From contig JANXYQ010000075.1 of NCBI GenBank assembly GCA_025355995.1, positions 1 through 64,000 on the forward strand: a DNA stretch of 64,000 bases, given 5' to 3'. Both the position numbers and the translations under genes were made by a program. This document shows positions 1 to 22,194 of this stretch, in pieces. Origin of the DNA: Spirochaetaceae bacterium. Its GTDB lineage: Bacteria > Spirochaetota > Spirochaetia > Treponematales > Rectinemataceae. The notes under the pieces were generated by a model. The model was not told the origin of the DNA. It did not search any database and worked only from the letters and a program-made list of their open reading frames with translations. Every line of letters starts with the position of its first letter. Within the stretch, counting starts at the first letter, position 1.

Positions 1-185
1 TCGAGGGCCCAGGCTCGCGCGCGGTCTTCCAGGCGGCCGCCGTCCGCGGTTTCGTCGACAACTTCAACGCCTTCTCGGAATTCAATCACCGCGGCGAACG
101 ATGGCGCCTCGAATTCGGCGACCGGAACGCGGTGAAGTGGAGCTACGCCCTGAGGCGCCCGACCCGGCCTGGGGAGGCGGCATGA
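1..185 (+). CDS. C-terminal fragment of an unidentified protein
   Basis: A reading frame open from the left edge ends at a TGA at 183-185. Its last ~60 residues read like real protein (a stretch rich in Phe, Asn and Glu, then WRLEFGD and VKWSYALR), whereas the other two forward frames are Arg/Pro-rich. The stop overlaps the ATG of the acyltransferase that follows (ATGA), the coupling style used throughout this window, so the two are probably one operon. The family cannot be recognised from so short a piece. Coding status is likely, function unknown. Confidence 0.5.
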   Translation, partial: EGPGSRAVFQAAAVRGFVDNFNAFSEFNHRGERWRLEFGDRNAVKWSYALRRPTRPGEAA

Positions 186-1072
186 GGGCCGGCGAAGGCC
201 CGGGGCTCTCCGAGCTCCTGCAGGCGGTGTTCCCGGACCTGGCGGGAAACGCCCGACCCGAGACCGTGCGCGACCTGATGGTGGCCGCGGGCTCGATCTA
301 TTACGCGTTCAACTCGCCGGAGCGCAGGAAGATCGAAGCGAGCGTCAGCGACCTCCTCGGCCCGGGCGAGCGCGCGGAGGCGACCACGAGGAAGGTCTTC
401 GCCCATATCCTTGAGCACTACTTCGAGAAGCTGCTGGTCGCGAACAGGTCGCGAGGCTTCATCGACTCCTTCGTGGAGAAAAGGGTGGCCACGCTGGGTC
501 TCGAAAGCCTGGACGCGGCCCTGGCCAGAGGCAGGGGCGCGATCGCGGTCACCGCTCACTGGGGCGCGGTGGAGCTCATTCCCTCCGTCCTACTCCAGCG
601 CGGCTATCCCGTCTCGATCGTGCTCGAGGCGAGGACAGTACGGCTGCGCAAGTCCCTGGAGCGGCTCGCGGCCGGCTCCGGAGTAGAACTCATCATAGCC
701 TCGCGCGGCGACAGGGTCCTCGAGCGGATATTCGAGGCGCTGAGGATCGGGAGGGTGCTCGTGACCCAGGTCGACGAGGTCGATGCCTGGAGACGGCGCA
801 TGTCGAGGACGATCAGGCTTTTCGGGAAGTCCCTCTACTTCGACCACAGCCTCGACTTCATCGCGAAGCGTTCCGGAGCCGCCTCCGTCGGCATATTCTG
901 CCGGCGCTCGCGGGGGCTCCGCTACGAGCTTAGCTGCGAGGAGATCGCGCTCGACCCCGCGGCGGAGGACGTGGCCGTGAAGGCGATGAGGCTCTGGGAG
1001 CGCCGCACGATCGAGGAGCCGGAGCAGTGGTATCAATGGAAGAAGTGGGGCGACATGAAGGTCGAGGCGTAG
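182..1072 (+). CDS. LpxL/HtrB-like lysophospholipid acyltransferase family protein
   Basis: Predicted membrane-associated acyltransferase of 296 residues. The family's HX4E catalytic motif is visible as His126-Trp-Gly-Ala-Val-Glu131. It is followed by the usual region with a conserved Arg-rich helix and a VTQVDE segment, as in late lipid A acyltransferases and related glycolipid acyltransferases. An ATG exists in frame at 101, but it would run far into the preceding gene. The ATG at 182 gives a 4-base ATGA overlap and a normal family length, so I use it. Substrate is open: many spirochaetes lack classical lipid A, so a glycolipid or lysophospholipid acceptor is as likely. A strong terminator follows directly. 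Confidence 0.75.
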   Translation: MRAGEGPGLSELLQAVFPDLAGNARPETVRDLMVAAGSIYYAFNSPERRKIEASVSDLLGPGERAEATTRKVFAHILEHYFEKLLVANRSRGFIDSFVEKRVATLGLESLDAALARGRGAIAVTAHWGAVELIPSVLLQRGYPVSIVLEARTVRLRKSLERLAAGSGVELIIASRGDRVLERIFEALRIGRVLVTQVDEVDAWRRRMSRTIRLFGKSLYFDHSLDFIAKRSGAASVGIFCRRSRGLRYELSCEEIALDPAAEDVAVKAMRLWERRTIEEPEQWYQWKKWGDMKVEA

Positions 1073-2512: not shown

Positions 2513-4345
2513 ATGACCGATACCTGGGAGACCGCCCTCAAAGCCTTTCGCTTCGCCTTCCAGCCCATAGCCCGGTCCTCGGACGGACGGGCCTACGGCT
2601 ACGAAGCCCTGCTGCGCGGATATAAGGAAGCCGGATTCCACGGAATCGCCTCCGTATTCGACTGCGCCTACATCGACGGCGTGCTCCTCGAGCTCGACGA
2701 GGGCCTACGCGCGAAAGCCTTCGCGGATTTCGTCGATCGGGCGCCGGAGGGGACCAAGCTCTTCTACAACATCGATAACCGATTTTTCAGGTCGACCGAT
2801 CGCGCGATGGGCGCCATGGCGAGGCAGGCCGAGCGCCTCGGCCTGCCGGCGTCGCGCATAGTCCTGGAGATCTCCGAGCGCCACGAGCTCGAAGGCGATA
2901 TCGGGTTCGAGAGGGCGATCTCGCAATGCCGCGCGGCCGGCTTCCGCATCGCGATCGACGATTTCGGCTCGGGCTTCGCGGGATTGAAGCTCCTCCATAT
3001 ATCCGAGCCGGATATCATCAAGATCGATCGCCATTTCATCGCCGGCTCGGGCGATGAGCCGCGCAAGGCAGCCTTCCTGGAGAAGATCGTCGGCATGGCC
3101 CACCTGATGGGCGTCCCCGTCGTGGCGGAGGGCGTAGAGATTGAGTCGGAGCTCGGCGTCTGCGTGGAGGCGGGCTGCGACATGATCCAGGGTTTTCTCC
3201 TGGCGAGGCCCGAGCGCAGCCAGGACGGCTTCAAGCCGGCCTTCCCGGTGCTCGCCCTCACCAAGGCCGAGGCGCGCCGCGGCCGCGCGAAGGCAGCCTC
3301 TATCGCCCAATCCAGGGTGCGCCACGTCGAGCCGGTCCGCGCCTCCTGCGCCTTCATCGAAGTCCTCGACCGATTCCGGAAGGAGCCGGGGCTCGACATC
3401 CTGCCGGTCGTCGACGACTCCGACGAGCCGGTCGGCGTCTACCTCGAGCGCGATTTCCGCCAATACGTCTATTCGCCCTTCGGCATCGCCATCCTTGGGC
3501 ATCTGGGCGCCGGGACCGGCGCCGCCACCTTCCTGCGCAAGGCACCGATCGCGTCGTCGACCTTCGATCTCGCGCGGGTCCTCGAGGTCTTCGGCTCCAT
3601 GCCCGCCTCGGGCGGCGTCGTCCTGACCCGCGACTCCCGCTACGCGGGCCTCCTGCCCGCGGCGGAGCTGCTGTCTCTCATCGCCGAGAGGGAGCTCTCC
3701 GAGGCTCGCGACCAGAATCCCCTCACGCGCCTGCCGGGCAACCTGCGGGTCGCGGAGGTGATCGCCGAGCGCATGGCCGATACGGCGCGGGGCCGAGCCT
3801 TCACCTACTTCGATTTCGACGATTTCAAGCCCTTCAACGACCGGTACGGCTTCCGCCTCGGGGACAGGGTCATCCAGCTCTTCGCCGACATCTTGAGGTC
3901 CATCTTCACCCGATCGAACGCCTTCGTGGGGCACCTAGGAGGCGATGACTTTTTCGCCTTCTCGTACGCGGACTCGGTCGAGCTGGCTCTCGCTCCCGTG
4001 TCCGAGGCCTCGAAGCGATTCCGCCACGAGGCCGCCTCGTTCTATTCGGCGGAGGACAGGAACCGCGGCTGGATACTCGGGCGCGACCGCTCCGGCGAAG
4101 AGAGGAAGATGCCCCTCATAGGCGTCAGCGCCGCCGTAGCCTTCATGGACGAAGGCATCCGCCTCGACGCTGAATCCCTCTCCGACGCCCTCGCGCTGCT
4201 CAAGAAGGAGGCGAAGCTCGCCCCTTCGCATAGCTCGTCTCGGGTTTTCTCGAAGACGGAGGGCGAAAGCTGCCTGGAGAGGACGGGAGTCGGGGGCTCG
4301 GGTCCCGCCTTCGCGGTCTTCGCGCCCGCCCTGCGCGCCTTCTAA
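2513..4345 (+). CDS. EAL-CBS-GGDEF cyclic-di-GMP signalling protein
   Basis: A 610-residue cytosolic protein with an N-terminal EAL phosphodiesterase domain (about 1-240), a paired CBS-like regulatory region (about 245-385) and a C-terminal GGDEF domain (about 400-575). The EAL motifs look intact: YEALLRG, YNIDN, LEISER, DDFGSG, IIKIDRHF, AEGVE and QGFLLARP. The GGDEF signature reads LGGDDFF, with Asp in place of the Glu, so cyclase activity is uncertain and the domain may bind or sense nucleotide. There are no membrane segments. The likely main activity is c-di-GMP hydrolysis gated by nucleotide binding at the CBS pair. It is preceded by 11-bp-spaced repeats, which suggests joint control with the phosphate-related genes. 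Confidence 0.85.
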   Translation: MTDTWETALKAFRFAFQPIARSSDGRAYGYEALLRGYKEAGFHGIASVFDCAYIDGVLLELDEGLRAKAFADFVDRAPEGTKLFYNIDNRFFRSTDRAMGAMARQAERLGLPASRIVLEISERHELEGDIGFERAISQCRAAGFRIAIDDFGSGFAGLKLLHISEPDIIKIDRHFIAGSGDEPRKAAFLEKIVGMAHLMGVPVVAEGVEIESELGVCVEAGCDMIQGFLLARPERSQDGFKPAFPVLALTKAEARRGRAKAASIAQSRVRHVEPVRASCAFIEVLDRFRKEPGLDILPVVDDSDEPVGVYLERDFRQYVYSPFGIAILGHLGAGTGAATFLRKAPIASSTFDLARVLEVFGSMPASGGVVLTRDSRYAGLLPAAELLSLIAERELSEARDQNPLTRLPGNLRVAEVIAERMADTARGRAFTYFDFDDFKPFNDRYGFRLGDRVIQLFADILRSIFTRSNAFVGHLGGDDFFAFSYADSVELALAPVSEASKRFRHEAASFYSAEDRNRGWILGRDRSGEERKMPLIGVSAAVAFMDEGIRLDAESLSDALALLKKEAKLAPSHSSSRVFSKTEGESCLERTGVGGSGPAFAVFAPALRAF

Positions 4346-4353
4346 TGCTGAAT

Positions 4354-4392
4354 TGACCGGGACTTAACCGGGAATTAACGCCGGTCGAGAAT
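4354..4392 (+). promoter_or_regulatory. Pho-box-like triple repeat and -10 upstream of phosphoesterase operon
   Basis: TGAC at 4354, TAAC at 4365 and TAAC at 4376 form three half-sites spaced 11 bp apart; the first two 11-mers share a CCGGGA core. GAGAAT at 4387-4392 would be the -10. A start near 4399 leaves only about six untranslated bases before the ATG at 4406. This is the clearest of the series. Confidence 0.55.
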
Positions 4393-4405: not shown

Positions 4406-5383
4406 ATGAAGAAGCGAAAGATGGCGATACTGTCCTCGTCGATGGCCGACATCGCGGCGCATAGCCCCTTCGAGGCCCTCGGGCCCGAGTCGCATTACGT
4501 CATCGCCGCGGACCTGCGCATGGGGGACGGCGGCAAGAAGGACGAGCTCGAGGGAGCGAGGAAGGCCGTCTTCTCCGTGCTCGGCCGCTGGTACCTGCCC
4601 CGCGGCTACACCCTCGTCCTGAACGGCGACGTCGAGGACCTCCGCGACTTTTGGCTCAAGGATATACTCGCAGCCTGGCCCAAGATGTACGCCCTCTTCG
4701 ACGCCTTCTCGGAGGGCGGCCGATTGCGCAAGATCGTCGGGGAGCGGGACCTCGCCCTCCTGCGCCTCGGCTCCTACCCCTATGAGCTCTCCCACGGCCT
4801 CAGGCTGGACGGGCCCAAGAACTCGATCCTCCTGCTGCACGGCCATCAGGCCTCGCCCCCCTATGCGGGGCGCGACTACCTGTCGGACTACATGCAGCGC
4901 TATCTCCACAGGGCGATGAGGCGCGAGCGGCGCCTCCCGGAGGACGACAAGCGAGAGCGCTACAAGACGGAGCAGCGCCTCTACCGCTCGGCCTCCCGTC
5001 TCGGGATAGTGGCGATAGAAGGGCATACGAGGCGGCCCCTCTTCGAATCCCTCACGAAGAGGGAAATCGTACGGGCCGAGATCGATAGGCTCCTAGGCGA
5101 GGCCCCCGGCCCCAGGCCGCCCAGCCTCTTCTGCCCGGGCCGGATACTGGGCGCCAAGGGACTGCGCCTCCTCGAGATCGAGGGTGACTCCCTCCGCTCG
5201 GTGCGCTGGGGCCGGGCGGAGAAGAAGAAGTCCTCGCGCCGGACCGTGGTATCCCCCGGCTTCTCCGACGTCCAGCCGGATTTCCTCGAGGGGACGCCTT
5301 ACGCGCGCTTCGAGCTGCGCTCCGCGTCGATCTCCGGCCTCCTCGATAGAGTCGATCGATTCGCCAACAAGGGAGACGAATGA
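4406..5383 (+). CDS. Degenerate calcineurin-like phosphoesterase paralogue (likely pseudoenzyme)
   Basis: A 325-residue tandem paralogue of the next gene, alignable over nearly its whole length. Metal-binding residues of the calcineurin fold have been replaced. The DLH of block 1 is Asp36-Leu-Arg38. The GNHD block reads Gly112-Glu-Arg-Asp115. The last His of the GHTHR block is Arg (GHTRR). The GDVEDL and HGHQAS blocks remain. Loss of these ligands argues against a normal two-metal centre, while the intact frame and coupling to the active copy argue for a retained structural or regulatory role, perhaps as a heterodimer partner. Its stop overlaps the next start (ATGA). Confidence 0.75.
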   Translation: MKKRKMAILSSSMADIAAHSPFEALGPESHYVIAADLRMGDGGKKDELEGARKAVFSVLGRWYLPRGYTLVLNGDVEDLRDFWLKDILAAWPKMYALFDAFSEGGRLRKIVGERDLALLRLGSYPYELSHGLRLDGPKNSILLLHGHQASPPYAGRDYLSDYMQRYLHRAMRRERRLPEDDKRERYKTEQRLYRSASRLGIVAIEGHTRRPLFESLTKREIVRAEIDRLLGEAPGPRPPSLFCPGRILGAKGLRLLEIEGDSLRSVRWGRAEKKKSSRRTVVSPGFSDVQPDFLEGTPYARFELRSASISGLLDRVDRFANKGDE

Positions 5384-6447
5384 TGAACTTCTCCGATTTC
5401 CTCGGCGGATTCCGGGAATTCCTGGAAGCCAGCCCCGTCCTTCGGATCGAGGACGGCGAGCGTTACGTGTTCATGAGCGACCTGCACATGGGCGACGGCG
5501 GGGACAGCGACGACCTCCAGCCCAACCGCGAGCTCGCGTCGACCGTCCTCGCCCGCTGGTACCTCGAGAGGGGTTATACGCTTATCCTCGGCGGCGACAT
5601 CGAGGACCTGCAAAAATTCAAGGCCGGCCCGATACGGAGAGCCTGGGGCGGGCTCTACGAGATTTTCGACGCCTTCGCCGCACGCGGCGCGCTCTGGAAG
5701 CTCGTGGGCAACCATGACCTCGCCCTCCTCCGGGAGAAGGAGCGCCGCTACCCGCTCCATCACGGCCTCGTGCTCGAGCGGAACGGGCGCAGGATATTCT
5801 GCTTCCACGGCCACCAGGCGTCCAGACTCTTCGCAAAATACATGTATATCAGCGATTTTGTCGTGCGCTATCTCTCGAAGCCCATGAAATACAAGAACGC
5901 GAGCATCTCGAGCGACTCGCGGCAGCGCTTCAAAGCAGAGCGCCGCATCTACCGGGCGTCCAAGAGGCTCGCCCTCGTCTCGATCTGCGGTCACACGCAC
6001 AGGCCCCTCTTCGAGTCCCTCTCGAAGTATGACAGCCTGCGCTGGTCAATAGAGGAGCTCCTGCGCGAGTACCCTGGCGCCTCCCCGGACCGCAAGGCGA
6101 GGATAGCGCAGCTCGTGGACCTGTACAGCAAGGAGTGCTCGCGCCTCGGAAAGGCGGAGCTCCGCTGGGGGCTCTCGAAGAGCCTGTACGAGGAGAAGTC
6201 CCTCCTCATACCCTGCGTCTTCAACTCCGGCTGCGCGACGGGGAAGCACGGCATGACCGCCATCGAGATCGAGGGAGGCCGAATCGGCCTCGTTCACTGG
6301 GCGAGGGAAGGCAGCGCCAGGCCCTACCTCCTCGAGGAGGCCCTGATGAAGGACTCGATAGACGGGACCGCCTTCTCGCGGTATCTGCTCAAGCAGGCCG
6401 ACCTGGATTACGTGTTCGCGCGCATCGATCTGCTGGGGAAGGAGTGA
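5380..6447 (+). CDS. Calcineurin-like metallophosphoesterase
   Basis: A 355-residue cytosolic metallophosphoesterase with all canonical blocks: SDLHMGD (Asp34, His36), GGDIED, VGNHDLALL, FHGHQAS and ICGHTHRP. This pattern fits a two-metal hydrolase distantly like LpxH/YfcE-type enzymes, but the substrate cannot be read from sequence. It is longer than LpxH because of an insert of about 60 residues with a CNSGCATGKHG segment after the GHTH block. It is co-transcribed with its degenerate paralogue upstream and a DedA protein downstream, behind a Pho-like promoter. That context makes a phospholipid or sugar-phosphate diester/monoester substrate plausible. Confidence 0.8.
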   Translation: MMNFSDFLGGFREFLEASPVLRIEDGERYVFMSDLHMGDGGDSDDLQPNRELASTVLARWYLERGYTLILGGDIEDLQKFKAGPIRRAWGGLYEIFDAFAARGALWKLVGNHDLALLREKERRYPLHHGLVLERNGRRIFCFHGHQASRLFAKYMYISDFVVRYLSKPMKYKNASISSDSRQRFKAERRIYRASKRLALVSICGHTHRPLFESLSKYDSLRWSIEELLREYPGASPDRKARIAQLVDLYSKECSRLGKAELRWGLSKSLYEEKSLLIPCVFNSGCATGKHGMTAIEIEGGRIGLVHWAREGSARPYLLEEALMKDSIDGTAFSRYLLKQADLDYVFARIDLLGKE

Positions 6448-6452
6448 AGGCC

Positions 6453-7100
6453 ATGCCCCCACACGCGAACTCCCTGCTCGGGCTGCTCCCTCCCTTCATC
6501 GCCGACTACCCCTTGCCCTGCGCCTTCTTGTTCCTCATGGTCTTCGGCTTCACCACCCCGATCTGCGAGGAAATCGCGCTGGCCCTCGTGGGCGCCACGA
6601 TGAGCGCCACCGGGACGAGCCTGCCCCTGGCCATCGCCCTCGCCCTCGTCGCCCTCCTCATCCAGGACTCGGCGGGCTTCCATCTCGCCCGGGCCTTCGG
6701 CTCCAAAATCATCAGGCACAGGCTACTGGCCCGGATCTTCAAGCCGAGGGGCATCGAGGCGGCGGAGCGCTATATCTCGCGCCGCGGTCCCATCGTCGTC
6801 TTCGCGTCCCGCTTCGTCGTCGGGATGCGGTCGGGCGCCATCTACGGATCGGGGCTCCTCGGCATGAGCTGGAAGCGCTTCATCCTATTCGACTCCCTCG
6901 CGGCAGTCATCATGGTCCCCGCCTGGCTCTTCGCCGGCTATTCGCTCGGCGCTAGCTTCGACTCCGCGGCGGGCCGATTGGGAGCCCTGCTCGGCGTCGT
7001 CGGCCCGGCGGCCGCCGTCGTCGGATCCATCCTCGTCTTTCTCGGAGTCAGGGCCGATCGGTCCAGGCTCGAGGCCGAGCTTATCCCGACCCCGATGTGA
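6453..7100 (+). CDS. DedA/VTT-domain membrane protein
   Basis: A 215-residue integral membrane protein of the DedA (SNARE-associated/VTT) family, which includes undecaprenyl-phosphate and phosphatidyl flippases. Visible family features are the TPICEEIAL entry segment, the central FGSKIIRHR loop and the FASRFVVGMRSGAIYGSGLLGM region, with its conserved Arg and small residues, followed by two hydrophobic helices. AAGGAG at 6439-6444 sits eight bases before the ATG at 6453, which sets the start. It follows the phosphoesterase by five bases, so it is the third gene of that operon. Its 3' end overlaps the convergent ATPase gene by 20 bp. Confidence 0.8.
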   Translation: MPPHANSLLGLLPPFIADYPLPCAFLFLMVFGFTTPICEEIALALVGATMSATGTSLPLAIALALVALLIQDSAGFHLARAFGSKIIRHRLLARIFKPRGIEAAERYISRRGPIVVFASRFVVGMRSGAIYGSGLLGMSWKRFILFDSLAAVIMVPAWLFAGYSLGASFDSAAGRLGALLGVVGPAAAVVGSILVFLGVRADRSRLEAELIPTPM

Positions 7101-7614
7101 ACCAGCGCACGACTCCCACCTTGTTCCTGGCCCCGTTGAAGATCATGCCGCCGTTCCAGTACTCGAGGGCGGCGATGAGGCTGTTGCCGCCGTCGGTCTC
7201 GTCGCTCCCGGGCCCGCGGTAGCTCGCGAGGGCCAGGAATGCGTCGAAGTCCTCCTCGAACAGGGCCGTCTGCCTTTTCCTGAAGAAGTCGTTCCACTCG
7301 TCCAGCAGGACGAAGCCCTCGCCCTCGTCCTCCACGATGAACCGCGCGCGCTTGCGCAGGTCGTACCAGACCCGCAGGCGCTTGGCGGGGTCGTTGCGGT
7401 TGCCGTGCTTGATCCCGTTCTTGATGATCTCGGAGAGCTGCTGCTCGAGGAGATTGCCCTCCTGGAAGGCTTCGGGGCAATCGGCGAGGATCAGCGCGGT
7501 GAACTCGCGGATCTTGGAGAAGTCGCTGGGGAATACGACGTATCGCATGCCCTGGGCGTCGAAGAGCTCGTTGCGCTCGTCGACTATCAGCTTCCTGACG
7601 ATCAGCCGCTTCAT
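7081..7614 (-). CDS. Anti-sigma-factor-type ATP-binding (HATPase) protein
   Basis: A 177-residue GHKL-fold protein, probably a serine kinase of the RsbW/SpoIIAB type or a related HATPase regulator. The N box is QQLSEIIKNGIKHGN, and DEGEGF is the G1-like box. The rest, including WNDFF and GGNSLIAALEYW, is less typical, so this is a divergent member. It is translationally coupled to the STAS gene (ATGA overlap at 7611-7614) and divergent from a PP2C phosphatase, which completes a partner-switching set: antagonist, kinase, phosphatase. No sigma factor is adjacent, so the output partner is unknown. A start further upstream would run through the STAS gene and is rejected. Confidence 0.75.
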   Translation of the reverse strand: MKRLIVRKLIVDERNELFDAQGMRYVVFPSDFSKIREFTALILADCPEAFQEGNLLEQQLSEIIKNGIKHGNRNDPAKRLRVWYDLRKRARFIVEDEGEGFVLLDEWNDFFRKRQTALFEEDFDAFLALASYRGPGSDETDGGNSLIAALEYWNGGMIFNGARNKVGVVRWFTSGSG

Positions 7615-7928
7615 GGCCGCGCCTCCTCTCGCATGAGGAGTATGATGTTCGACATCTTGAGTACCTTCCTCGGCGAGCCGTCGATCCCGCGGAAACGGAG
7701 CTCGCAGCCCCGCCTCTTGCCTTCCTGGAGGATCCTGATGAGGGCTCCGACGCCCGTGCTGTCTAGGTAGGCGACCTCGGTGAGGTCGAAGCGGAGCCTC
7801 GCGGCCCCGCCCGCGATGCGCGACAGCATCGCCTTCGCGAAGTCCGGCGCCGAATACAGGTCGCAGTCGCCCTTCATCGTGACGTTCTCGAAACCGCCCT
7901 GGTCGCGGGCGCCGATCATCCATTCCAT
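7611..7928 (-). CDS. STAS-domain anti-sigma factor antagonist
   Basis: A 105-residue single STAS domain. The phosphorylatable serine lies in the canonical YLDSTGVGALIR motif, preceded by the LRFDLTEVAYLD strand. As in RsbV/SpoIIAA proteins, phosphorylation by the downstream HATPase protein would release the kinase's target, and the PP2C phosphatase divergently encoded from 8043 would reverse it. It is the first gene of a two-gene minus-strand operon. Confidence 0.85.
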   Translation of the reverse strand: MEWMIGARDQGGFENVTMKGDCDLYSAPDFAKAMLSRIAGGAARLRFDLTEVAYLDSTGVGALIRILQEGKRRGCELRFRGIDGSPRKVLKMSNIILLMREEARP

Positions 7929-8003
7929 GCTTTTCGATGTAGCCGATGGGGGCGGCGCATGGCAAGCGCCGGGAAAGAAAAACGCGGATATCTCACGCGG
8001 GAT

Positions 8004-8034
8004 TAACGCGATCGTAACGCGGCGGGCCGAGAAT
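8004..8034 (+). promoter_or_regulatory. Pho-box-like repeats and -10 upstream of CBS-PP2C gene
   Basis: TAAC at 8004 and 8015 are 11 bp apart, with a weaker TCAC a further 11 bp upstream (7993). GAGAAT at 8029-8034 follows the second repeat by 10 bp. Only eight bases separate the -10 from the ATG at 8043 and no Shine-Dalgarno sequence is present, so the transcript is probably leaderless. Confidence 0.5.
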
Positions 8035-8042
8035 GCCGAACG

Positions 8043-9221
8043 ATGAACGGAAAAGCGATACTAGAGAAATCGGGAACCGTCCGCATGTACAGCTCATCCG
8101 CCTTGCATGCGGCTAGGTATCCGTATTTCGTCCGCGCCGACTCCAACCTCCTGCGCATGGCCGACGAGCTCCAGCGGGAGCCTTCCCTCCCCGCCGTGGC
8201 CGTCGTGGACGACTCGGGCCGGGTGCTCGGCATAGTGCGCAGGGACAGGCTCTTCGCCCTCCTCGGAAAGCCCTTCGGGAGGGAAGTCCTGCGAAGGAGC
8301 CTCGTGGCGGAGCTCGTCGAGGAGGTCCTCTACTTCGACGCCCACGCCGACCTGTTCGCCGTCGCCGAGCGGATGCTGCCGGGCGCCCGGGCGTCCGCGG
8401 GGAGCGAGGGAGGGGACTTCTGCGTCCTCGTCGGAGAGGAGGGCCGCTTCCTGGCTTTGCTCGCCTCCCAGGACCTGGCCAACTACCTCTCGCGCATGAC
8501 GCAGGACGACATAGAGCTGGCGGGCAGGCTGCAGGAGCGGCTCCTCGCCGGCGAGGGACTCGAGGACGGAGGCGTGTGGCGCGTCGAGGCCTGGTCTCGC
8601 CCGGCCAAGGGCGTGGGTGGCGACTTCTATTTTACGAAGAGGCTGGACGACGGGAGGATCTTCCTCGCCCTGTGCGACGTATCGGGCAAAGGCGTGGCCG
8701 CCTCCCTCATCGTGTCCATGGTCTGGGGCATGCTCAGGATGTTCGACTATCGGCGCGGCCTGCGCGAGCTCGTGCTCGGCCTCAACGAGTCGGTCGTGGC
8801 GACCTTCCACATGGAGAAGTACCTGACGGGGATCTTCCTCGTCTACGATCCTTCGGAACGGCGCATCCAATGCGCGGACATGGGCCACTCGCATAGCGTA
8901 GTATTCCGCCGCGGCCAGCCCCGCTCGCTCAAGGGCCCGCGCGGCAACTTGCCGATCGGGGTCGAGTCCGCCCTCGATCCCGCGATCTACCCGTACCGTC
9001 TCGAGCCGGGCGACGCCCTCCTTCTGTACAGCGACGGCATAGTGGAACAGGAGGACTCGGCCGCGGCGGAGTTCGGCGAGAGACGGCTCATCGCGACAGC
9101 CTCTTCGGCGATAGGTCGCGGTGCGAGACTTCGCGAGATCCTTCCGACAGCCCTGGACTCGCACCGCGGCGGGACCCCTCAGCAGGACGACATGAGCTTC
9201 CTCTTGCTGTCGATTTTTTAG
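8043..9221 (+). CDS. CBS-domain PP2C (SpoIIE/RsbU-type) serine phosphatase
   Basis: A 392-residue cytosolic protein with a tandem CBS-like sensory region at the N-terminus (about 15-150) and a SpoIIE/RsbU PP2C phosphatase domain (about 175-392). Metal-binding and family motifs are VGGDFY, LCDVSGKGVAASL, ADMGHSHSV, LYSDGIVEQED and the terminal QQDDMSFLLL. It would dephosphorylate the STAS protein encoded divergently, closing a partner switch. The CBS pair suggests control by adenine nucleotides or a related ligand. The start lacks a Shine-Dalgarno sequence and lies eight bases from a -10-like hexamer. Confidence 0.85.
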   Translation: MNGKAILEKSGTVRMYSSSALHAARYPYFVRADSNLLRMADELQREPSLPAVAVVDDSGRVLGIVRRDRLFALLGKPFGREVLRRSLVAELVEEVLYFDAHADLFAVAERMLPGARASAGSEGGDFCVLVGEEGRFLALLASQDLANYLSRMTQDDIELAGRLQERLLAGEGLEDGGVWRVEAWSRPAKGVGGDFYFTKRLDDGRIFLALCDVSGKGVAASLIVSMVWGMLRMFDYRRGLRELVLGLNESVVATFHMEKYLTGIFLVYDPSERRIQCADMGHSHSVVFRRGQPRSLKGPRGNLPIGVESALDPAIYPYRLEPGDALLLYSDGIVEQEDSAAAEFGERRLIATASSAIGRGARLREILPTALDSHRGGTPQQDDMSFLLLSIF

Positions 9222-9229
9222 CTGCGCCC

Positions 9230-9260
9230 TAACCGAATACTAACTATCTGCTGCCAGTGT
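9230..9260 (+). promoter_or_regulatory. Pho-box-like repeats upstream of arsC
   Basis: TAAC at 9230-9233 and 9241-9244 are 11 bp apart, and the flanks are also alike (CTAACCGAATA and CTAACTATCTG). The hexamer 10 bp further on, CAGTGT at 9255-9260, is a poor -10. GGCGGAGG then precedes the ATG at 9277. The repeat is clear; the core promoter is uncertain. Confidence 0.45.
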
Positions 9261-9276: not shown

Positions 9277-9699
9277 ATGACCAAAGTGCTCTTCCTCTGC
9301 GTCCACAATTCCGCCCGCAGCCAGATGGCCGAGGCCTTCCTGAAAAAATTCGGAAGGGACCGCTTCGAGGCCGAGAGCGCTGGTCTCGAGCCGGGCAAGC
9401 TCAATCCTTACGTCATACGCGCCATGGCCGAAAAGGGCATAGATATTTCGCGCAACCCGACGAAGAACGTCTTCGACCTCTTCGAGGCGAAGCGAGTCTA
9501 CCAGGTAGTCGTCAGCGTCTGCTCCGCCGAGGCGGCCGAGAAGTGCCCGATCTTTCCCGGGCTTTCCGCAAAGCTGCACTGGCCCTTCCCCGATCCCTCG
9601 TCCTTGACCGGAAACGACGATGAGATCATGGCCGGAGTAAGGCGGGTCAGGGATCAGATCGAGGAAGCGGTGAAGGAATTCGCGGCGAAATATCGCTGA
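9277..9699 (+). CDS. arsC: Arsenate reductase, low-molecular-weight phosphatase type
   Basis: A 140-residue cytosolic protein of the LMW protein-tyrosine-phosphatase fold. The N-terminal [13 protein letters not shown] loop contains the CX5R catalytic site in the form typical of thioredoxin-linked arsenate reductases, and WPFPDPS near the C-terminus carries the acid Asp. Another Cys in the [14 protein letters not shown] segment would be the redox pair that passes the disulfide to thioredoxin. A tyrosine phosphatase role cannot be excluded, but the NSARSQ form favours ArsC. It stands alone between two signalling and phosphonate operons. Arsenate enters through phosphate systems, so Pho-type control would make sense. 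Confidence 0.8.
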
Positions 9700-9721
9700 G
9701 GACCTCGCAGACGGCGGCCCC

Positions 9722-9770
9722 GAGCGCGCGAGAATTCGCTTAGCTCGCGCGCTTATCATCGAAATCTCAT
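9722..9770 (+). promoter_or_regulatory. Hairpin and weak repeat in the phnG leader region
   Basis: A perfect 10-bp stem (arms 9723-9732 and 9744-9753) with an 11-base loop lies between arsC and phnG. No T-run follows, so intrinsic termination is doubtful; it may be an mRNA-stability or attenuator element. Immediately after it, TTATCAT (9753-9759) and ATCTCAT (9764-9770) are 11 bp apart and resemble the enteric Pho-box heptamer. They do not match the TAAC repeats elsewhere in the window. No convincing -10 is seen. Confidence 0.3.
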
Positions 9771-9833
9771 CCAATCGAAACGCTACCCGAACGATCGAAA
9801 GTCAATGTTCCTGCACTCAAGAGAGGCCGAAGC

Positions 9834-10265
9834 ATGGAAAGATCGCGAAGGACGAGGATTCTGATCGAGGGTTCCCCCGAGCTTAGGATCGAGCTCAGCC
9901 GCTGCGTCGCCGAGCGGCGATCTGTCGCGGCGGTGGACGAGCCCCGAGGCGGGCTCGCGATGATCAAAATGCGCGAGACCGCGAAGAACGGCCTCTTCTA
10001 TATCGGCGAGCTCCTCGTCACCGAGGCGAAGGTGCAGATCGAGGGGCGCATCGGCATCGGGATTATCGCGGGAGACGAGCCCGAGGCCGCGCGGGACTTG
10101 GCGATCGTCGACGCCGCCTGCAACGCGGGCCTCGCGGAAACCGAGGGGTGGGAAGGCCTGCTGATCGAGGAGGAGGCTAGGATCGATGCCCGCGAAAGGG
10201 CGGAAGCCGCGCGCGTCGCGAGGACCAAGGTCGCCTTCGAGTCGATGGATCGGGGCGGGGCATGA
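9834..10265 (+). CDS. phnG: C-P lyase core subunit PhnG
   Basis: A 143-residue protein recognised as PhnG by the segments KMRETAKNGLFYIGELLVTE and GIIAGDEPEAARDLAIVDAA and by its place at the head of phnGHIJKML. PhnG with PhnH, PhnI and PhnJ forms the carbon-phosphorus lyase core; PhnI, helped by PhnG and PhnH, couples the phosphonate to ribose with release of adenine. GAGAGG seven bases upstream sets the start. Its stop overlaps the phnH start (ATGA). Confidence 0.9.
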   Translation: MERSRRTRILIEGSPELRIELSRCVAERRSVAAVDEPRGGLAMIKMRETAKNGLFYIGELLVTEAKVQIEGRIGIGIIAGDEPEAARDLAIVDAACNAGLAETEGWEGLLIEEEARIDARERAEAARVARTKVAFESMDRGGA

Positions 10266-10843
10266 GGCTTGATCCCGTGCTCGACCTCCAATTGGCCTTC
10301 AGACAGATCCTCGCCGCGATGGCGAGCCCGGGAAAGATAGCGGACCTGGGGCGCGAGGCGGGGCTCCTCGACCTGGACGTGCGCTTCAACAAGGGACTCC
10401 TCCTCGTGGCCCTCGCCCTGCTCGATGGGGAGACGAGCTTCTGCGTCGCTTCGGCGGAGTCGGAGGCCCACGCCAGGATCATCTCTCAGCTGACCTACGC
10501 GAGGGCCGCGGCGCCGGGCGAGGCGGATTTCATTTTCGCCATCGGCGCAGGCTACGCCGCGGAGGCGATAGCCTCCGCCAAGATCGGGACCCTCATCGAT
10601 CCTCACCTCGGCGCCACCCTCGTCGTCGAGGTCCGATCATTGGAAGAAGCGGGACCGTTTACGCTCTCCGGCCCCGGGATCGAGTCCTCGGCAAGCCTCG
10701 GAGTCGGCCTCGAGCCGGGCTGGGTCGCCGAGAGGGCCGCGAGGAACATCGAGTATCCGCTCGGGGTCGACCTGCTTTTCGTGGACGCCCTTTCGCGGCT
10801 CGCCGCCCTCCCTAGGACCACGATAGTCCGGGCGGGAGTCTGA
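10262..10843 (+). CDS. phnH: C-P lyase core subunit PhnH
   Basis: A 193-residue PhnH homologue: RQILAAMASPGKIADL near the N-terminus is the family's Phe/Arg-Gln-x-x-x-Met-x-x-Pro-Gly block. It continues with a degenerate PLP-transferase-like fold seen in the LTYARAA and FAIGAGYAAEA region. PhnH has no independent catalytic activity; it is part of the PhnGHIJ core and is needed for nucleoside-phosphonate formation. It is coupled to phnG upstream and to phnI (one base gap) downstream. Confidence 0.9.
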   Translation: MRLDPVLDLQLAFRQILAAMASPGKIADLGREAGLLDLDVRFNKGLLLVALALLDGETSFCVASAESEAHARIISQLTYARAAAPGEADFIFAIGAGYAAEAIASAKIGTLIDPHLGATLVVEVRSLEEAGPFTLSGPGIESSASLGVGLEPGWVAERAARNIEYPLGVDLLFVDALSRLAALPRTTIVRAGV

Positions 10844-10844
10844 G

Positions 10845-11987
10845 ATGGGATACATAGCTGTCAGGGGCGGGGCGGAGGCCATCGAAGCCTCGATCGAGCG
10901 CCTCAAGTACGAGCGGCTTCGGAAGGGCCGGGCGCTCGATGTCGGCGCCGCGGAGGCGGGGCTTCGCGCCCTCGTGGACCAGGTGATGGCCGAGGCGAGC
11001 CTCTACGACGAGGGCATCGCGGCCCTCTCGATCAAGCAGGCCGAGGGCAGCCCCGAGGAAGCGGTCTTCCTCATGCGCGCCTACCGCTCCACGCTCCCTC
11101 GGTCCCACTACGCCCTCGCCGTCGACACCCGGGCCATGCGGGTCGAGCGGCGCATCTCGGCGAGCTTCAAGGATATTCCCGGCGGGCAGCTGCTCGGAGC
11201 CTCCGCCGATTACACGCATCGGCTCATCGACCCTAGCCTCCGGGGCGAGACCGACGAGGGCGCAGTCGCCTGGGTCGAGGAATACCTGGGCCGCGTCGCT
11301 ATAGACGCGTGCGATACGAACGAGGCGAGCGAGGACTCGGCGGCGTCGCGGCCTGAAGCGCCGCCGGCCTCCGCGATCGACTACGTGCGGAGCCTGGGCC
11401 TCATCGAGGAAAGGCAGATGGACGATGCCGAGCCCAGGGACGTCACAAAAAAAGCGATCGAATTCCCGGCCTCCCGCTCGGAGCGCCTCCAGATACTCGC
11501 GCGCGGCCAGACCGGCGCCGTCACGGCCCTTGGCTACGCAGCCCTGCGCGGCTACGGCGCGACCCTCCACCCGACGGTCGGGGAGCTGCGCGTCGGCCGC
11601 GTCGCCGTATACGTGCCCGACCCCTTCGCCGCCGGCTCGGCCAAGGGGGACGGCGACGCCTATTACGTCGGCGAGCTGCGCATCACGGCGGTGGAGACCC
11701 TCGTCCCGGTCCAGGTCCACAAGGGCAGGGGCAAGACCGAGATCGAATTCGTGCTGGGCTTCGGCGCCTGCTTCGGGCAGAACGAGACCAAGGCCATCGC
11801 CATGAGCCTCCTGGATCAGTGCCTCGAGTCGGGCGACAAGCGATCGGCCGTCCAAGACGAGGAGTTCGTCCTCCTCCACGTGGATTCGGTCGAGGCGACT
11901 GGCTTCATCTCGCATCTCAAGCTGCCGCACTACGTCACCTTCCAGTCGAAGCTGGACAGCCTCCGCAAGGCGAGGGGAGCGAAATGA
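10845..11987 (+). CDS. phnI: C-P lyase core subunit PhnI
   Basis: A 380-residue PhnI, close to the family's usual length (about 355-370). Recognisable blocks include MGYIAVRGGAEAI at the start, VKAI-like motifs replaced by LRALVDQVMAEASLYDE, the SHYALAVDTRAMRVERRIS segment, and LSYAALRGYG-like and LSVGELRVG-like strands near 11540-11600. The protein acts as the nucleosidase-type core subunit that displaces adenine from ATP to give alpha-ribosyl-1-phosphonate triphosphate. A run of seven A residues near 11445 lies in a Thr-Lys-Lys codon context. Coupled to phnJ by ATGA. Confidence 0.9.
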   Translation: MGYIAVRGGAEAIEASIERLKYERLRKGRALDVGAAEAGLRALVDQVMAEASLYDEGIAALSIKQAEGSPEEAVFLMRAYRSTLPRSHYALAVDTRAMRVERRISASFKDIPGGQLLGASADYTHRLIDPSLRGETDEGAVAWVEEYLGRVAIDACDTNEASEDSAASRPEAPPASAIDYVRSLGLIEERQMDDAEPRDVTKKAIEFPASRSERLQILARGQTGAVTALGYAALRGYGATLHPTVGELRVGRVAVYVPDPFAAGSAKGDGDAYYVGELRITAVETLVPVQVHKGRGKTEIEFVLGFGACFGQNETKAIAMSLLDQCLESGDKRSAVQDEEFVLLHVDSVEATGFISHLKLPHYVTFQSKLDSLRKARGAK

Positions 11988-12853
11988 ACCGCGAGCGATT
12001 GTACAACTTCGCCTTCTTCGACGAAGGCTCGAAGCGCGAGGTGCGGAGGGCCATCCTCAAGGCAGTGGCGATCCCGGGCTATCAAGTCCCCTTCGCGTCG
12101 CGGGAGATGCCCATCGCCAGGGGCTGGGGCACCGGGGGGCTGCAGATCACCCTTTCCCTCGTGGGAAAGGAGGACGTGATCAAGGTGATCGACCAGGGAG
12201 CGGACGAGTCGGTCAACGCGGTCAGCATCAAGCGCCTGGTGGTCGGGACGACCGGAATCCGCACCACCGACGACGCGCGGGAGGCGACTATCATCCAGTC
12301 CCGCCACCGCATCCCCGAATTCCCGCTCGCTCGCGGCCAGATCCTCGTCCTTCAGGTGCCCATGCCGGAGCCCCTGCGCTTCGTCGAATCGAGCGAGTAC
12401 GCGACCAAGCGTCTGCACGCCGAGAAGGAGTACTCCGGAGCCTACCTGGCCCTCTTCGAGGAGATCATGAAGTACGGCCGCGTCGCCACCGGGGCCGATC
12501 ATCCCGTCCTCGTGCACGACCGCTACGTGATGGCCCCGAGCCCCATTCCCCGCTTCGACAACCCGAAGATGATGCGCTGCGAGGCCCTCATCCTCCTGGG
12601 CGCGGGGCGGGAGAAGAAGATCTACGCGGTTCCCCCGTTCACGAAGGTCGCGTCGCTCGATTTCGAGGACCACCCCTTCGAGGTCGAGTCCCTCGAAGGC
12701 CGGCGCTGCCGACGCTGCGGGGCGAGGGAGGTGTTCATGGACGAGATCATCGACGACGCCTCGGGCGGGGCGGAATACCAATGCAACGACGCGAGCTATT
12801 GCGCGTCGCGGACGAGAGCTCGAGCGGGCGCTCCCGCAAGCGGGGGCGGATGA
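11984..12853 (+). CDS. phnJ: C-P lyase radical SAM subunit PhnJ
   Basis: A 289-residue PhnJ, the subunit that cleaves the C-P bond with a [4Fe-4S] cluster and S-adenosylmethionine. The diagnostic cysteines are all present: CX2CX21C at Cys242, Cys245 and Cys267, then Cys273 five residues on, one position offset from the E. coli enzyme (241/244/266/272). The N-terminal MNRERLYNFAFFDEGSKRE block and FASREMPIARGWGTGG are also typical. The ATG at 11984 overlaps the phnI stop. The last ~15 residues are a low-complexity tail before the overlap with phnK. Confidence 0.95.
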   Translation: MNRERLYNFAFFDEGSKREVRRAILKAVAIPGYQVPFASREMPIARGWGTGGLQITLSLVGKEDVIKVIDQGADESVNAVSIKRLVVGTTGIRTTDDAREATIIQSRHRIPEFPLARGQILVLQVPMPEPLRFVESSEYATKRLHAEKEYSGAYLALFEEIMKYGRVATGADHPVLVHDRYVMAPSPIPRFDNPKMMRCEALILLGAGREKKIYAVPPFTKVASLDFEDHPFEVESLEGRRCRRCGAREVFMDEIIDDASGGAEYQCNDASYCASRTRARAGAPASGGG

Positions 12854-13701
12854 TGGCGGCCGAGTACGACGTGAGCGCCCTCAGGGTCGAGGGGCTTTGG
12901 AAGTGGTTCGGGCCGCGCTGCCCCCGATGCTCTACAGGCCGGGAGGAAGCGCTGGAGCGGAACTACTGCCCCGACTGCGGGACGGTCTACGCCCTCCGCG
13001 ACCTCTCCTTCAGGCTCTTCGAGGGAGAGGTCCTCGGCGTGGTGGGGGAGAGCGGGTCCGGCAAATCGACCATCCTCAACTGCCTCTATTACGACATGGA
13101 GCCGAGCGCCGGCGCGGCCTACCTCTCGAGCTTCGAAGGAGGGGAGTCTGACGTCTTCTCCGTATCGGCCCAGGCCAAGAGGACGGTCCGCAACACCCTG
13201 CTCGGCAAGGTCTATCAAAATGCGCTCCTGGGACTCAAGATGGGCTTCTCCTCGATATCGAACGTGGCGGAGAAGCTCATAGCCTCGGGGGACCGGAACG
13301 CCTCGAGGATGGAGGCCCGCGCGGTCGAGCTCCTCGGCCACGTCAACATCCCCCCCTACCGCATGAGGGAGAACCCCGAGTTCTTCTCGGGCGGGATGCA
13401 GCAGCGCGTGCAGATCGCCAAGGCCCTCTCCAACAACCCTCCCGTCCTCCTCCTCGACGAGGTGACCACGGGGCTGGACCTATCGGTTCAGGCGAAGGTC
13501 CTCGACCTCGTGAAGCAGATCCAGCGCGAGCTCGGGATCAGCATGCTCCTTGTCTCCCACGACCTCGGGGTGGTGAGGATGCTGGCGGACCGTACCGTAG
13601 TGATGCTCAACGGCAAGGTCGTCGAGGCGGGCTTGACCGACCAGATACTCGAGGATCCCCAAGAACCATACACGCAGGAGCTCGTCCACTCGATGCTTTG
13701 A
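12850..13701 (+). CDS. phnK: C-P lyase ABC-type ATPase PhnK with zinc-ribbon insert
   Basis: A 283-residue soluble ABC ATPase that docks on the C-P lyase core rather than on a membrane permease. It has Walker A GESGSGKST, Q-loop region VYQNALLG, signature FSGGMQQRVQIAKAL and Walker B LLLDEVTTGLD. Unlike the enteric protein, a CX2C-X12-CX2C segment (CPRC...CPDC, about residues 22-41) is inserted between the first strand and the Walker A loop, which looks like a small zinc ribbon. The D-loop reads DEVTTGLD instead of DEPTxGLD. The start is ATG 12850 or 12853; the first gives the usual ATGA overlap. Confidence 0.9.
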   Translation: MMAAEYDVSALRVEGLWKWFGPRCPRCSTGREEALERNYCPDCGTVYALRDLSFRLFEGEVLGVVGESGSGKSTILNCLYYDMEPSAGAAYLSSFEGGESDVFSVSAQAKRTVRNTLLGKVYQNALLGLKMGFSSISNVAEKLIASGDRNASRMEARAVELLGHVNIPPYRMRENPEFFSGGMQQRVQIAKALSNNPPVLLLDEVTTGLDLSVQAKVLDLVKQIQRELGISMLLVSHDLGVVRMLADRTVVMLNGKVVEAGLTDQILEDPQEPYTQELVHSML

Positions 13702-13718
13702 AAAAGGAAGGCGGCAGC

Positions 13719-14897
13719 ATGTACGCGATAACGAACGGGGAAATAGTCGCCGAGGACGAGATCCTCACGGGTATGGATCTGATAGTCGAGGACGACACGA
13801 TCGCGGACATCGTGCCGAGCGGGAGCCTTCGCCTCGGACACGGCCAGGAGATCGACGCTCGAGGGAAATTCGTGATGCCGGGCTTCATCGACATCCACGC
13901 GGACTACATCGAGCGCATGGCCGCGCCGCGCCCGACCAGCCTCATGGATTTCTCCTTGAGCCTGCGCGAGGCGGAGCGAGAGCTGGCCACCCACGGCATC
14001 ACCACCATGTTCCATTCCCTCGCCCTCTTCGACCACCTGGTTTTCGACTCGAACCCCATCCGAGACCCCGAGAACACCAAGCGCTTCATTGACATCATCG
14101 AGGCCTCGCATGCTTCGCGGCACCTGATACGCCATAGGTTCCACGCCAGGTTCGAGATAGATAACCTCCGGCGGGTCGAGGAGATCAGCGGCTACATCAG
14201 GGACGGGAGGGTTCACCTTATATCCTTCATGGACCACACGCCGGGACAGGGGCAATATCGCGACCTCGAGATGTACCGTGGGACCATAAAGGGCTACCGC
14301 GACCTCAGCGACGACGAGATCGACAGGGCTATCGCGAGCCTCCAGGGCAGGGCCAAGCTCGAAGAGTCGACGATCCGCGGGATCGCGGTGCTCGCCATAG
14401 CGAACGGCATAGCCGTGGCCTCGCACGACGACGATACGGCCGAGAAGCTGGCCTACGTCCGGGACTTGGGCGCCACGATAAGCGAATTTCCGGTCACCCT
14501 CGAGGCGGCGCGCGAGGCGAGGCGGCTCGGAATGAGCACCGTGATAGGAGCGCCCAACGTCCTCCTCGGCGGCTCGCACTCCGGCAACCTATCGGCGAAG
14601 GAAGCCGTGCTAGACGGATCGGCGGACATACTCTGCAGCGACTACTACCCCGCGGCCATACTGCACGCCGTGTTCCGGCTCGCGGAGGACGCGGGGCTCG
14701 GCCTCCCGGCGGCTACGAGGCTCGCCACCCTGAATCCCGCGGCGGCGGTCAAGATGGGCGACGAGTTCGGCTCACTGGTCCCGGGCAAGAAGGCCGACAT
14801 CCTCCTCGTGGAGAGGGCCGAGGACGGCTTCCCGGCGGTGACGACGGTTGTCGTCGACGGCGGGATTATCATGACCACAAATTACAGGAAGGCATGA
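13719..14897 (+). CDS. phnM: Alpha-D-ribose 1-methylphosphonate 5-triphosphate diphosphatase PhnM
   Basis: A 392-residue amidohydrolase-superfamily enzyme that removes pyrophosphate from the ribosyl-phosphonate triphosphate. Signatures: [16 protein letters not shown] (first metal block), [22 protein letters not shown] and [15 protein letters not shown], all characteristic of PhnM. AGGAAGG at 13705-13711 seven bases upstream supports the ATG at 13719; a TTG at 13698 that overlaps the phnK stop is an alternative adding seven residues. Gene order places phnM before phnL, unlike E. coli. Confidence 0.93.
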
Positions 14898-15523
14898 TGG
14901 AAAAGAAGTTGACTGAAGCGCCCCTCGTGCACGAGGGATCGGCGCTCGAGAACGTGAGCCTCGGGGCCTACACCGAGCTGGGCGAGCGCGGCTACTACGA
15001 GAACGTCGAGCTCGGGGATTACTCGTACACCGGTCCCAACTGCTTCCTTCAGAACGCGGTCGTAGGCAAATTCGCGAACATAGCCGCGGCCGTGCGCATT
15101 GGCCCCACGATGCATCCCATGGACAGGCCGACCCTCCATCACTTCACCTATAGGCGCGTCATGTTCGGCATGGCCGACCGCGACGACGAGGAATTCTTCG
15201 CCCGGAGGAAATCGGCGGTGGCCCGCATCGGCCACGACACCTGGATCGGGCACGGGGCCATCATCATGCCCGGCGTGACCGTCGGCGACGGGGCGGTCGT
15301 CGGCTCCGGGGCTGTGGTCACGAAGGACGTCCCGCACTTCGCCGTGGTCGTCGGCGTGCCGGCCAAGAGGATCAAGGACCGCTTCCCCGCGGAGATCGCG
15401 GCCGCCATGGCTAGGATAGCCTGGTGGGACTGGCCCTACGAGGTCATCAAGGCGCGGCTCGCCGACTTTTGCGGGGGCTTCGAGGACTTCGCCCGCGCGT
15501 ACGACCCGGGAGACGAAGCCTGA
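14894..15523 (+). CDS. Phosphonate-associated hexapeptide-repeat transferase-like protein
   Basis: A 209-residue left-handed beta-helix protein of the hexapeptide acyltransferase type often found in phn operons. Repeats are visible as [33 protein letters not shown] and [29 protein letters not shown], ending with [13 protein letters not shown] catalytic-type His lies in [17 protein letters not shown]. Such proteins resemble xenobiotic/chloramphenicol acetyltransferases. By analogy with PhnO they might acetylate aminoalkylphosphonates, but this is untested. Coupled to phnM (ATGA) and to phnL (TGATG). Confidence 0.85.
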
Positions 15524-16251
15524 TGGACGCGATGCTCGCGATCGAGGGCCTGGGCAAGACCTTCTCCGTCCACCAGCTCGGCAAGCGCATCAAGGCCTGC
15601 GAGGGAATCGACCTGGCCGTGGCCGCGGGAGAATTCATCGGGATCACAGGAAGGAGCGGCTCCGGCAAGTCGACTATCCTGAAGCTGATCTATCGAAGCT
15701 ATCTCCCGCAGAAGGGGCGGGCCTGGTACCGCTCGGAGCGCTTCGGGCCGATCGACCTCTTCCAGACCAGCGAGCGCCAGATCCTCTACCTGCGGAGGCG
15801 CGAGATAGGCTACGTCAGCCAGTTCCTCAACCTCGTGCCCCGGACTACCGCCAGGGACTCGATCGAGCAGGCGGCCCTCGAGGTGGGGATGGGGAGCGAG
15901 CGCGCCAGGGAGGAGGCCGAGAGGATGCTGCGGCATTTCGAGCTGGACGAGGAGCTCTGGGACAGCTACGCGAGCACTTTCTCGGGTGGCGAGAAGCTCA
16001 GGCTCAATGTGGCCCGAGCCATGGTCAAGCATCCGAGGCTCCTCCTTCTCGACGAGCCGACCGCCAGCCTCGACGAGCGCTCTAAGGGAAAGGTGAGGGA
16101 GCTCATCGGGAAGCTCAAGGCCGAGGGCACAACGATGCTCGGCATTTTCCACGATCTCCGGTTCATGGAGGGCCTCTGCGACCGCGAGTACGGCATGGGC
16201 CTCGGGCGCTTCGTTTCCGACGCGCTCCCGGTCGCGGGGGCGCCGCCGTGA
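15523..16251 (+). CDS. phnL: C-P lyase ABC-type ATPase PhnL
   Basis: A 242-residue soluble ABC ATPase, partner of PhnK on the C-P lyase core. Walker A GRSGSGKST, the VSQFLNLVPRTTA Q-loop region, signature FSGGEKLRLNVARAM and Walker B LLLLDEPTASLD are intact, and the MLAIEGLGKTFSVHQLGKRI start is typical of PhnL. The ATG at 15523 shares one base with the preceding TGA. No zinc-ribbon insert like that of PhnK is present. Confidence 0.92.
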   Translation: MDAMLAIEGLGKTFSVHQLGKRIKACEGIDLAVAAGEFIGITGRSGSGKSTILKLIYRSYLPQKGRAWYRSERFGPIDLFQTSERQILYLRRREIGYVSQFLNLVPRTTARDSIEQAALEVGMGSERAREEAERMLRHFELDEELWDSYASTFSGGEKLRLNVARAMVKHPRLLLLDEPTASLDERSKGKVRELIGKLKAEGTTMLGIFHDLRFMEGLCDREYGMGLGRFVSDALPVAGAPP

Positions 16252-17900: not shown

Positions 17901-17907
17901 TCGATTG

Positions 17908-17964
17908 CTAAGACGTTCCGACCCCTTTCCTAACAATAGTTCCTTAACATCACGGTGAAATCTC
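17908..17964 (+). promoter_or_regulatory. TAAC-type repeats upstream of phnD
   Basis: CTAAG (17908), CGACC (17919) and CTAAC (17930) are spaced 11 bp apart; a TTAAC at 17944 is 14 bp further on. This is a looser version of the direct repeats seen at other genes. No strong -10 is evident between 17949 and the AGGAGG that precedes the phnD start. phnDCE therefore probably has its own promoter distinct from that of phnG. Confidence 0.4.
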
Positions 17965-17978
17965 ATTAGGAGGCAAAG

Positions 17979-19016: not shown

Positions 19017-19025
19017 GCGGAAGGG

Positions 19026-19055
19026 AAGCCCGAGAGGCGAAGGCTTCTCGGGCTT
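19026..19055 (+). promoter_or_regulatory. Intercistronic hairpin between phnD and phnC
   Basis: Perfect 10-bp inverted repeat (arms 19026-19035 and 19046-19055) with a 10-base loop, not followed by T residues. Such hairpins after a binding-protein gene typically protect the upstream mRNA from 3' decay and give more binding protein than permease. Confidence 0.7.
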
Positions 19056-19071
19056 GCCTATGGGAGCCTCG

Positions 19072-21457: not shown

Positions 21458-21471
21458 TGGAGGGATCCACG

Positions 21472-22179: not shown

Positions 22180-22194
22180 CTCATCCATCCTTTG

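Follow-up and report, generated by a model that had tools for sequence, protein, structure and literature searches.

At one locus in the genome of a Spirochaetaceae bacterium two metallophosphoesterase paralogues, here termed MPE1 and MPE2, lie side by side, the first with an altered and the second with a canonical active site. This raises the question of whether the altered copy is a conserved pseudoenzyme, perhaps a partner of its neighbour, or a decaying duplicate. The window analysed is a single stretch of 64,000 nucleotides (G000:C5:1-64000), taken from an assembly of 4.5 Mb in 138 contigs that is 95 % complete, and contains the two genes at the following positions:

4406..5383, + strand: MPE1, altered metallophosphoesterase (ligand table, clade and AlphaFold2 model)
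5380..6447, + strand: MPE2, canonical metallophosphoesterase paralogue with every ligand present

Both open reading frames are intact and co-directional, and the encoded proteins share 40 % amino acid identity and can be aligned along their length, in agreement with an earlier note that had described two adjacent, full-length-alignable paralogues, the first of them free of frameshifts. The ATG of MPE2 (5380) and the TGA stop codon of MPE1 (5381-5383) overlap in an ATGA, which is consistent with the translational coupling that had also been proposed for the pair. Approximately 41 residues that follow the GHTHR block in MPE2 are missing from MPE1. As the altered copies of two other genera retain at least part of this region, the loss is specific to the genus of MPE1. 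MPE2 passes the cut-off of the Pfam Metallophos model marginally (21.9 bits; cut-off 21.5), and an NCBIfam search, LpxH included, gave no real match for this protein. No Pfam or NCBIfam model matched MPE1, no sequence relatives of either protein were found in the PDB, and a plasmid search returned no matches.

Alterations in the active site of MPE1

The metal ligands can be assigned by reference to LpxH, where Mn1 is bound by D8, H10, D41 and H197, and Mn2 by D41, N79, H114 and H195 (PMC5016852). The His of the GNHD block does not itself bind metal, and in LpxH an Arg naturally occupies this position (PMC5016852). The three substitutions previously read in the first copy, DLH to DLR, GNHD to GERD and GHTHR to GHTRR, are found in the alignment exactly as claimed (D36-L-R38, G112-E-R-D115 and G206-H-T-R-R210), while D75 of GD, H145 of HGHQ and H207, the first His of GHT, are unchanged. 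The Mn1-site His residues are replaced by R38 and R209, the Asn by E113 and the proton-donor His by R114. In LpxH numbering, MPE1 has thus lost both Mn1 His residues (H10 and H197) and carries Glu for N79, with the remaining Mn2 ligands kept. All seven metal ligands expected of a competent metallophosphoesterase are present in MPE2, which is canonical as had been stated, but not in MPE1.

The ligand columns were read in the family alignment and subsequently in all further matches of an order-wide search, together comprising 131 other homologue sequences. The seven ligands are kept by all of these with readable positions, bar one with Gln for His and one decayed, misaligned fragment, while in two further homologues only the Asp of GNHD varies. 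Given this order-wide conservation, the ligand changes in MPE1 are beyond chance. Four proteins lose ligands together, and these are the only altered sequences known; they include MPE1 and the following three, found in Spirochaetaceae bacterium UBA1306 (G001), Spirochaetaceae bacterium GL140_3_metabat_44 (G004) and G005:

L039:9040-10014: altered copy of G001, the same-genus orthologue of MPE1
L041:6542-7624: altered copy of G004
L043:3158-3871: altered copy of G005, partial

Using MPE2 numbering, H36 is replaced in the altered copies by R, R or G, N111 by E, H112 by R, and H207 by R, R, G and G, while D34, D73, E75, D113, H143-G-H-Q and H205 are kept. One genus has Arg at both Mn1 His positions and two other genera have Gly, so that the feature they have in common here is a loss rather than the gain of one new residue. 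GERD is common to the altered copies wherever it is readable. On the basis of the LpxH assignment, the altered clade lacks both Mn1 His residues and holds the Mn2 set with Asn replaced by Glu. Through this set (D, E, H, H) a single metal could be coordinated and a different chemistry supported. All altered copies retain it, together with HGHQ and the Asp of GERD, and the fold of MPE1 is predicted to be intact. It is nevertheless unlikely that MPE1 is an active one-metal enzyme (D75, E113, H145 and H207) with changed chemistry or substrate, as catalysis in the superfamily involves two metals and the Arg or Gly residues at the Mn1 positions point to loss rather than to a new catalytic residue. 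Furthermore, the H10N substitution alone abolishes Mn1 binding in LpxH, which then no longer captures lipid X and is expected to be inactive (PMC5016852).

Predicted fold and similarity to known systems

In their AlphaFold2 models and in the alignment, respectively, MPE1 and MPE2 share the two-sheet sandwich and the D-x-H, GD, GNH, H and GHxH order of the calcineurin-like metallophosphoesterase superfamily. The nearest solved folds to the AlphaFold2 model of MPE1 (pLDDT 83.2; pTM 0.87) are those of LpxH, YfcE and Vps29. LpxH is the closest in each case, with Z 15.3 and rmsd 3.9 over 207 residues for MPE1, and Z 15.5 and rmsd 4.0 over 206 residues for MPE2. The ligand order is the same and an Arg follows the Asn/Glu position in both LpxH and MPE1. 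However, LpxH carries GNRD where MPE2 has GNHD, and MPE1 is distinguished from it by the missing Mn1 His pair. Neither LpxH (TIGR01854) nor LpxC (PF03331) was matched in G000, G001, G004 and G005, and a role of the pair in lipid A synthesis is therefore ruled out. A betaine-lipid pathway was likewise rejected, with no match to DUF3419/BtaA.

The metallophosphoesterase fold has been retained after the loss of catalysis in Vps29 and the eukaryotic DNA polymerase B-subunits (PMC9234464, PMC4996933). The metallophosphoesterase site of Vps29, one of the folds closest to MPE1 (Z about 13), is described as inactive (PMC9234464). However, Vps29 and the B-subunits are eukaryotic scaffolds, whereas MPE1 is bacterial, associated with a Pho-box-like element and overlaps an active-looking paralogue. 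A literature search for bacterial metallophosphoesterase pseudoenzymes yielded nothing relevant, a weak indication of absence given the partial coverage of the search.

Conservation and selection of the altered copies

The altered copies occur in four genomes belonging to three genera of one spirochaete family. In a tree constructed without the ligand columns they form a single clade (support 100/99) on a long branch, and MPE1 shares 58 % amino acid identity and identical altered motifs with its G001 orthologue. Constraining the two window copies as sisters made the tree 120 log units worse (p-AU 4e-93), and the reading of the tandem pair as a recent duplication is thus ruled out. A split of the altered clade from MPE2 inside the clade of these genera and G060 was not rejected (p-AU 0.37).

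By a counting method, dN/dS was 0.41 for MPE1; MPE2 gave 0.21 and a neighbouring gene 0.24. Pairwise codon likelihood, allowing for base composition, rejected omega = 1 for MPE1 (2dlnL 205) and favoured an omega near or below 0.05; as synonymous sites are nearly saturated, only the rejection of neutrality is relied upon here. The MPE1 protein changes at approximately twice the rate of MPE2, though it is constrained. This faster change and the residues lost in its genus would fit a decaying recent duplicate of MPE2, an explanation which is highly improbable when set against the same-motif orthologue in another species, the clade across three genera, the rejection of neutrality and the rejected sisterhood of the window copies. 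A real decayed remnant of the family also looks different: at L224 (G032:C11:382004; also L053 6183-7175) only a fragment containing GHTHRPLFES is still recognisable. This G032 sequence, considered as an altered copy outside the clade, proved to be such a decayed fragment, and provides a useful contrast with the conserved altered clade.

The dN/dS check on the first copy, set beforehand, therefore strongly rejected neutrality, and the copy is neither missing nor broken in close relatives. MPE1 combines an altered site held across species with purifying selection, as is characteristic of conserved pseudoenzymes. The G001 orthologue, the three-genus clade and the rejection of omega = 1 thus support the suggestion of the earlier note that the first copy is conserved and pseudoenzyme-like, and not a duplicate in decay. 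As judged from the sequences, it is very likely that MPE1 is conserved and is not a canonical two-metal enzyme.

Gene order around the altered copies

A scan of the named genomes identified only two loci, those of G001 and G004. Directly behind the G001 altered copy lies a gene that we take to be DUF3108-like, which gave no Pfam match; the gene after it is a different canonical paralogue (MPE2'), and the MPE2 orthologue of this genome is located elsewhere, away from the altered copy. The order in G004 is MPE2, a PHP-domain gene, the altered copy and pstSCAB-phoU-phoB, where the pst gene names beyond PstS were assigned from sequence and homology. Downstream of the altered copy of G005 come a PstS-like gene and a PF04185 phosphoesterase, while the region on its opposite side falls past the contig end. 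A canonical copy is therefore adjacent or one gene away in 3/3 genomes where this is visible, with varying identity and order. The strict inactive/active tandem arrangement is not conserved, with one gene intervening in both G001 and G004. Members of the family are found in 11/30 genomes of the spirochaete family, 7/11 of which have canonical copies only, although such absences are soft since G001 reaches a completeness of only 79 % and some of the assemblies are in fragments.

The inconstant adjacency to one particular canonical copy would suit a protein that acts alone. MPE1 could then bind a ligand or act as a sensor within the Pho response on its own, without contacting MPE2, and their co-expression would reflect a shared regulon only. 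The altered genes adjoin pst genes in G004 and G005, and an Arg occupies the LpxH Arg80 product-binding position in all readable altered copies. This explanation is nonetheless rather doubtful, as a canonical copy lies close by in every genome where this can be judged, and the overlapping genes of the window link the translation of MPE1 with that of MPE2.

A Pho-box-like element upstream of the gene pair

The most informative feature of the locus, which is new here and absent from the earlier note, is a Pho-box-like element upstream of MPE1. A genome pattern search at ≤1 mismatch returned three matches only, preceding MPE1, the arsC-phn operon and pstS:

4353..4379, + strand: Pho-box-like element TTGACCGGGACTTAACCGGGAATTAAC, three perfect repeats with an 11-bp period, ending 26 bp before the start of MPE1
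9218..9244, + strand: second Pho-box-like element, 1 mismatch, upstream of the arsC-phn operon
C116:1151-1177: third Pho-box-like element, preceding pstS and a pstC-like gene

The sequence TTGACCGGGACTTAACCGGGAATTAAC is the sole window match at ≤2 mismatches (expected 0.00). PhoB binds 11-bp direct repeats (PMC2648988), and the MPE1-MPE2 operon has such repeats in common with pst and other phosphate genes, as expected of Pho regulon members. Across the order, scores of ≥11 of 15 in the 115 bases upstream of the start were obtained for 19/61 family members; of randomly chosen places in these loci, approximately 0.45 % reached this level. High box scores occur in 16/37 MPE2-like genes and 3/24 of the rest, a division drawn post hoc among related, non-independent sequences. 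The pst genes adjoin not only the altered copies of G004 and G005 but also canonical copies in several genera. No direct box was found upstream of the G004 altered gene, whose transcription could instead start at the MPE2 promoter. Two further pairs of TTAAC-type repeats were observed in the window at 22194-22209 and 23316-23331, both on the - strand.

The repeat word TTAAC differs from the CTGTCAT word of E. coli (PMC2648988), and the element could belong to another regulator, with the operon not controlled by phosphate. This is improbable, as the element precedes pstS, arsC-phn and, elsewhere in the genome, the MPE1 operon only, and pst genes adjoin relatives of the pair. Pho control of the MPE1-MPE2 operon is thus strongly favoured by the upstream repeats, and the two genes very probably form a phosphate-starvation operon inside a phosphate-acquisition island.

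Genomic context of the gene pair

The genes surrounding MPE1 and MPE2 include the following:

3-182: end of a PlsC-like gene, preceding the LpxL-type acyltransferase gene
101..1072, + strand: LpxL-type acyltransferase (PF03279, 1.6e-12)
2513..4345, + strand: EAL-CBS-GGDEF signalling protein (Pfam)
6453..7100, + strand: VTT/DedA-family membrane protein (PF09335, 5e-12), next gene, probable operon
7081..7614, - strand: RsbW-like HATPase protein (Pfam of G004 homologues, NCBIfam; exact start inferred)
7611-7928, - strand: STAS protein, partner-switch cluster
8043-9221, + strand: CBS-SpoIIE phosphatase, partner-switch cluster
9277..14897, + strand: arsC-like gene, phnG, phnH, phnI, phnJ, phnK and phnM, C-P lyase operon

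The VTT/DedA gene starts 5 bp past the MPE2 stop codon, with the DedA and UptA models below cut-off. The EAL-CBS-GGDEF gene also occurs near MPE2 relatives in five other loci, and the RsbW/STAS/SpoIIE partner-switch cluster (RsbW homologue) beside MPE2 relatives in six. Weaker TTAAC-type repeats with an 11-bp period are found at 2425-2451, before the EAL-CBS-GGDEF gene (2513), and at 7992-8018, before the CBS-SpoIIE gene (8043). The c-di-GMP and partner-switch signalling proteins may form part of the same phosphate response. Among the C-P lyase genes, NCBIfam matches were above cut-off for PhnG, PhnH and PhnM and below it for PhnK and ArsC, while Pfam matches were obtained for PhnI, PhnJ and Phosphonate-bd. 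The arsC-phn operon continues with phn transport genes as far as about position 21 kb of the window. The stretch from 9277 to 22179 comprises a complete-looking C-P lyase operon (phnG-phnM), transport genes and a PHP-inositol-phosphatase fusion (16248-17900); its last gene is DUF3108-like, and a homologue of this gene follows the altered phosphoesterase in G001.

The PlsC-like and LpxL-type genes have the same order as near the G001 altered copy (compared with L039 and L047), and in the window (3-1072) they occur where neither LpxC nor LpxH was detected. At L152 a PlsC-like acyltransferase gene (2-1033, - strand), resembling that beside the G001 altered copy, is divergent from pstS (1259-2089, + strand) with a Pho-box-like element in between, an arrangement hinting at lipid remodelling under phosphate stress. 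PlcP is a Pho-regulated, Mn-dependent metallophosphoesterase of membrane lipid remodelling that is induced by phosphate limitation (PMC8528852, PMC8231724). MPE2, compared with PlcP at the level of regulation and fold, resembles it in predicted Pho control and fold, and acyltransferase genes and a DedA-type protein lie nearby. A PlcP-like role is suggested by the combination of a Pho-controlled metallophosphoesterase, PlsC-/LpxL-type genes without a lipid A pathway and a DedA-type neighbour. However, an Agt-type glycosyltransferase partner is not established for MPE2, and an inactive partner is not described for PlcP (PMC8528852, PMC8231724). By this analogy MPE2 is a candidate PlcP-like phospholipase, though an unlikely one.

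A possible role for MPE1 and MPE2

The explanation we prefer regards MPE1 as a conserved pseudoenzyme with the calcineurin-like fold, which would be produced together with the active-looking MPE2 from one Pho promoter. MPE1 would be incapable of two-metal phosphoester hydrolysis and would serve one of the canonical family members as a regulator or as a subunit without catalytic activity of its own. Its altered pocket would probably bind phosphate or a phosphoester, and MPE1 would probably contact MPE2. The latter may release phosphate for reuse from a phosphoester inside the cell, possibly from a phospholipid in the manner of PlcP. The best guess for MPE1, a plausible one in line with the regulatory subunit considered in the earlier note, is that it assists or controls MPE2 without being a catalyst itself, and the prospect that MPE1 partners or regulates MPE2 or its paralogues is put at a little under even. 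The gene overlap and the canonical copy that is always near where visible suggest such a partnership, while the differences in canonical neighbour and gene order between genomes argue against it. It is equally possible that MPE1 works with the PHP or DUF3108-like neighbours instead, and a past tandem duplication alone could have brought about the nearness of MPE1 to canonical copies. The more specific proposal, that a Mn1-less enzyme has become a sensor of phosphate or phosphoesters which, when phosphate is scarce, would bind its active paralogue and control it, must be considered rather unlikely.

Metallophosphoesterase pseudoenzymes are already known as a kind, and inactive folds are best known from eukaryotes (Vps29 and DNA polymerase B-subunits), but the MPE1 family is new. 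A half-dismantled bacterial site alongside an active-looking paralogue, under a probable phosphate-starvation promoter, provides a tractable pair in which to follow the conversion of a dead phosphatase into a subunit or sensor. The Pho-box-like element ties an uncharacterised metallophosphoesterase family to the phosphate regulon and defines a testable phosphate regulon for these little-studied spirochaetes. If MPE1 is indeed such a sensor, the Pho response of these bacteria would include a regulatory subunit derived from a phosphatase.
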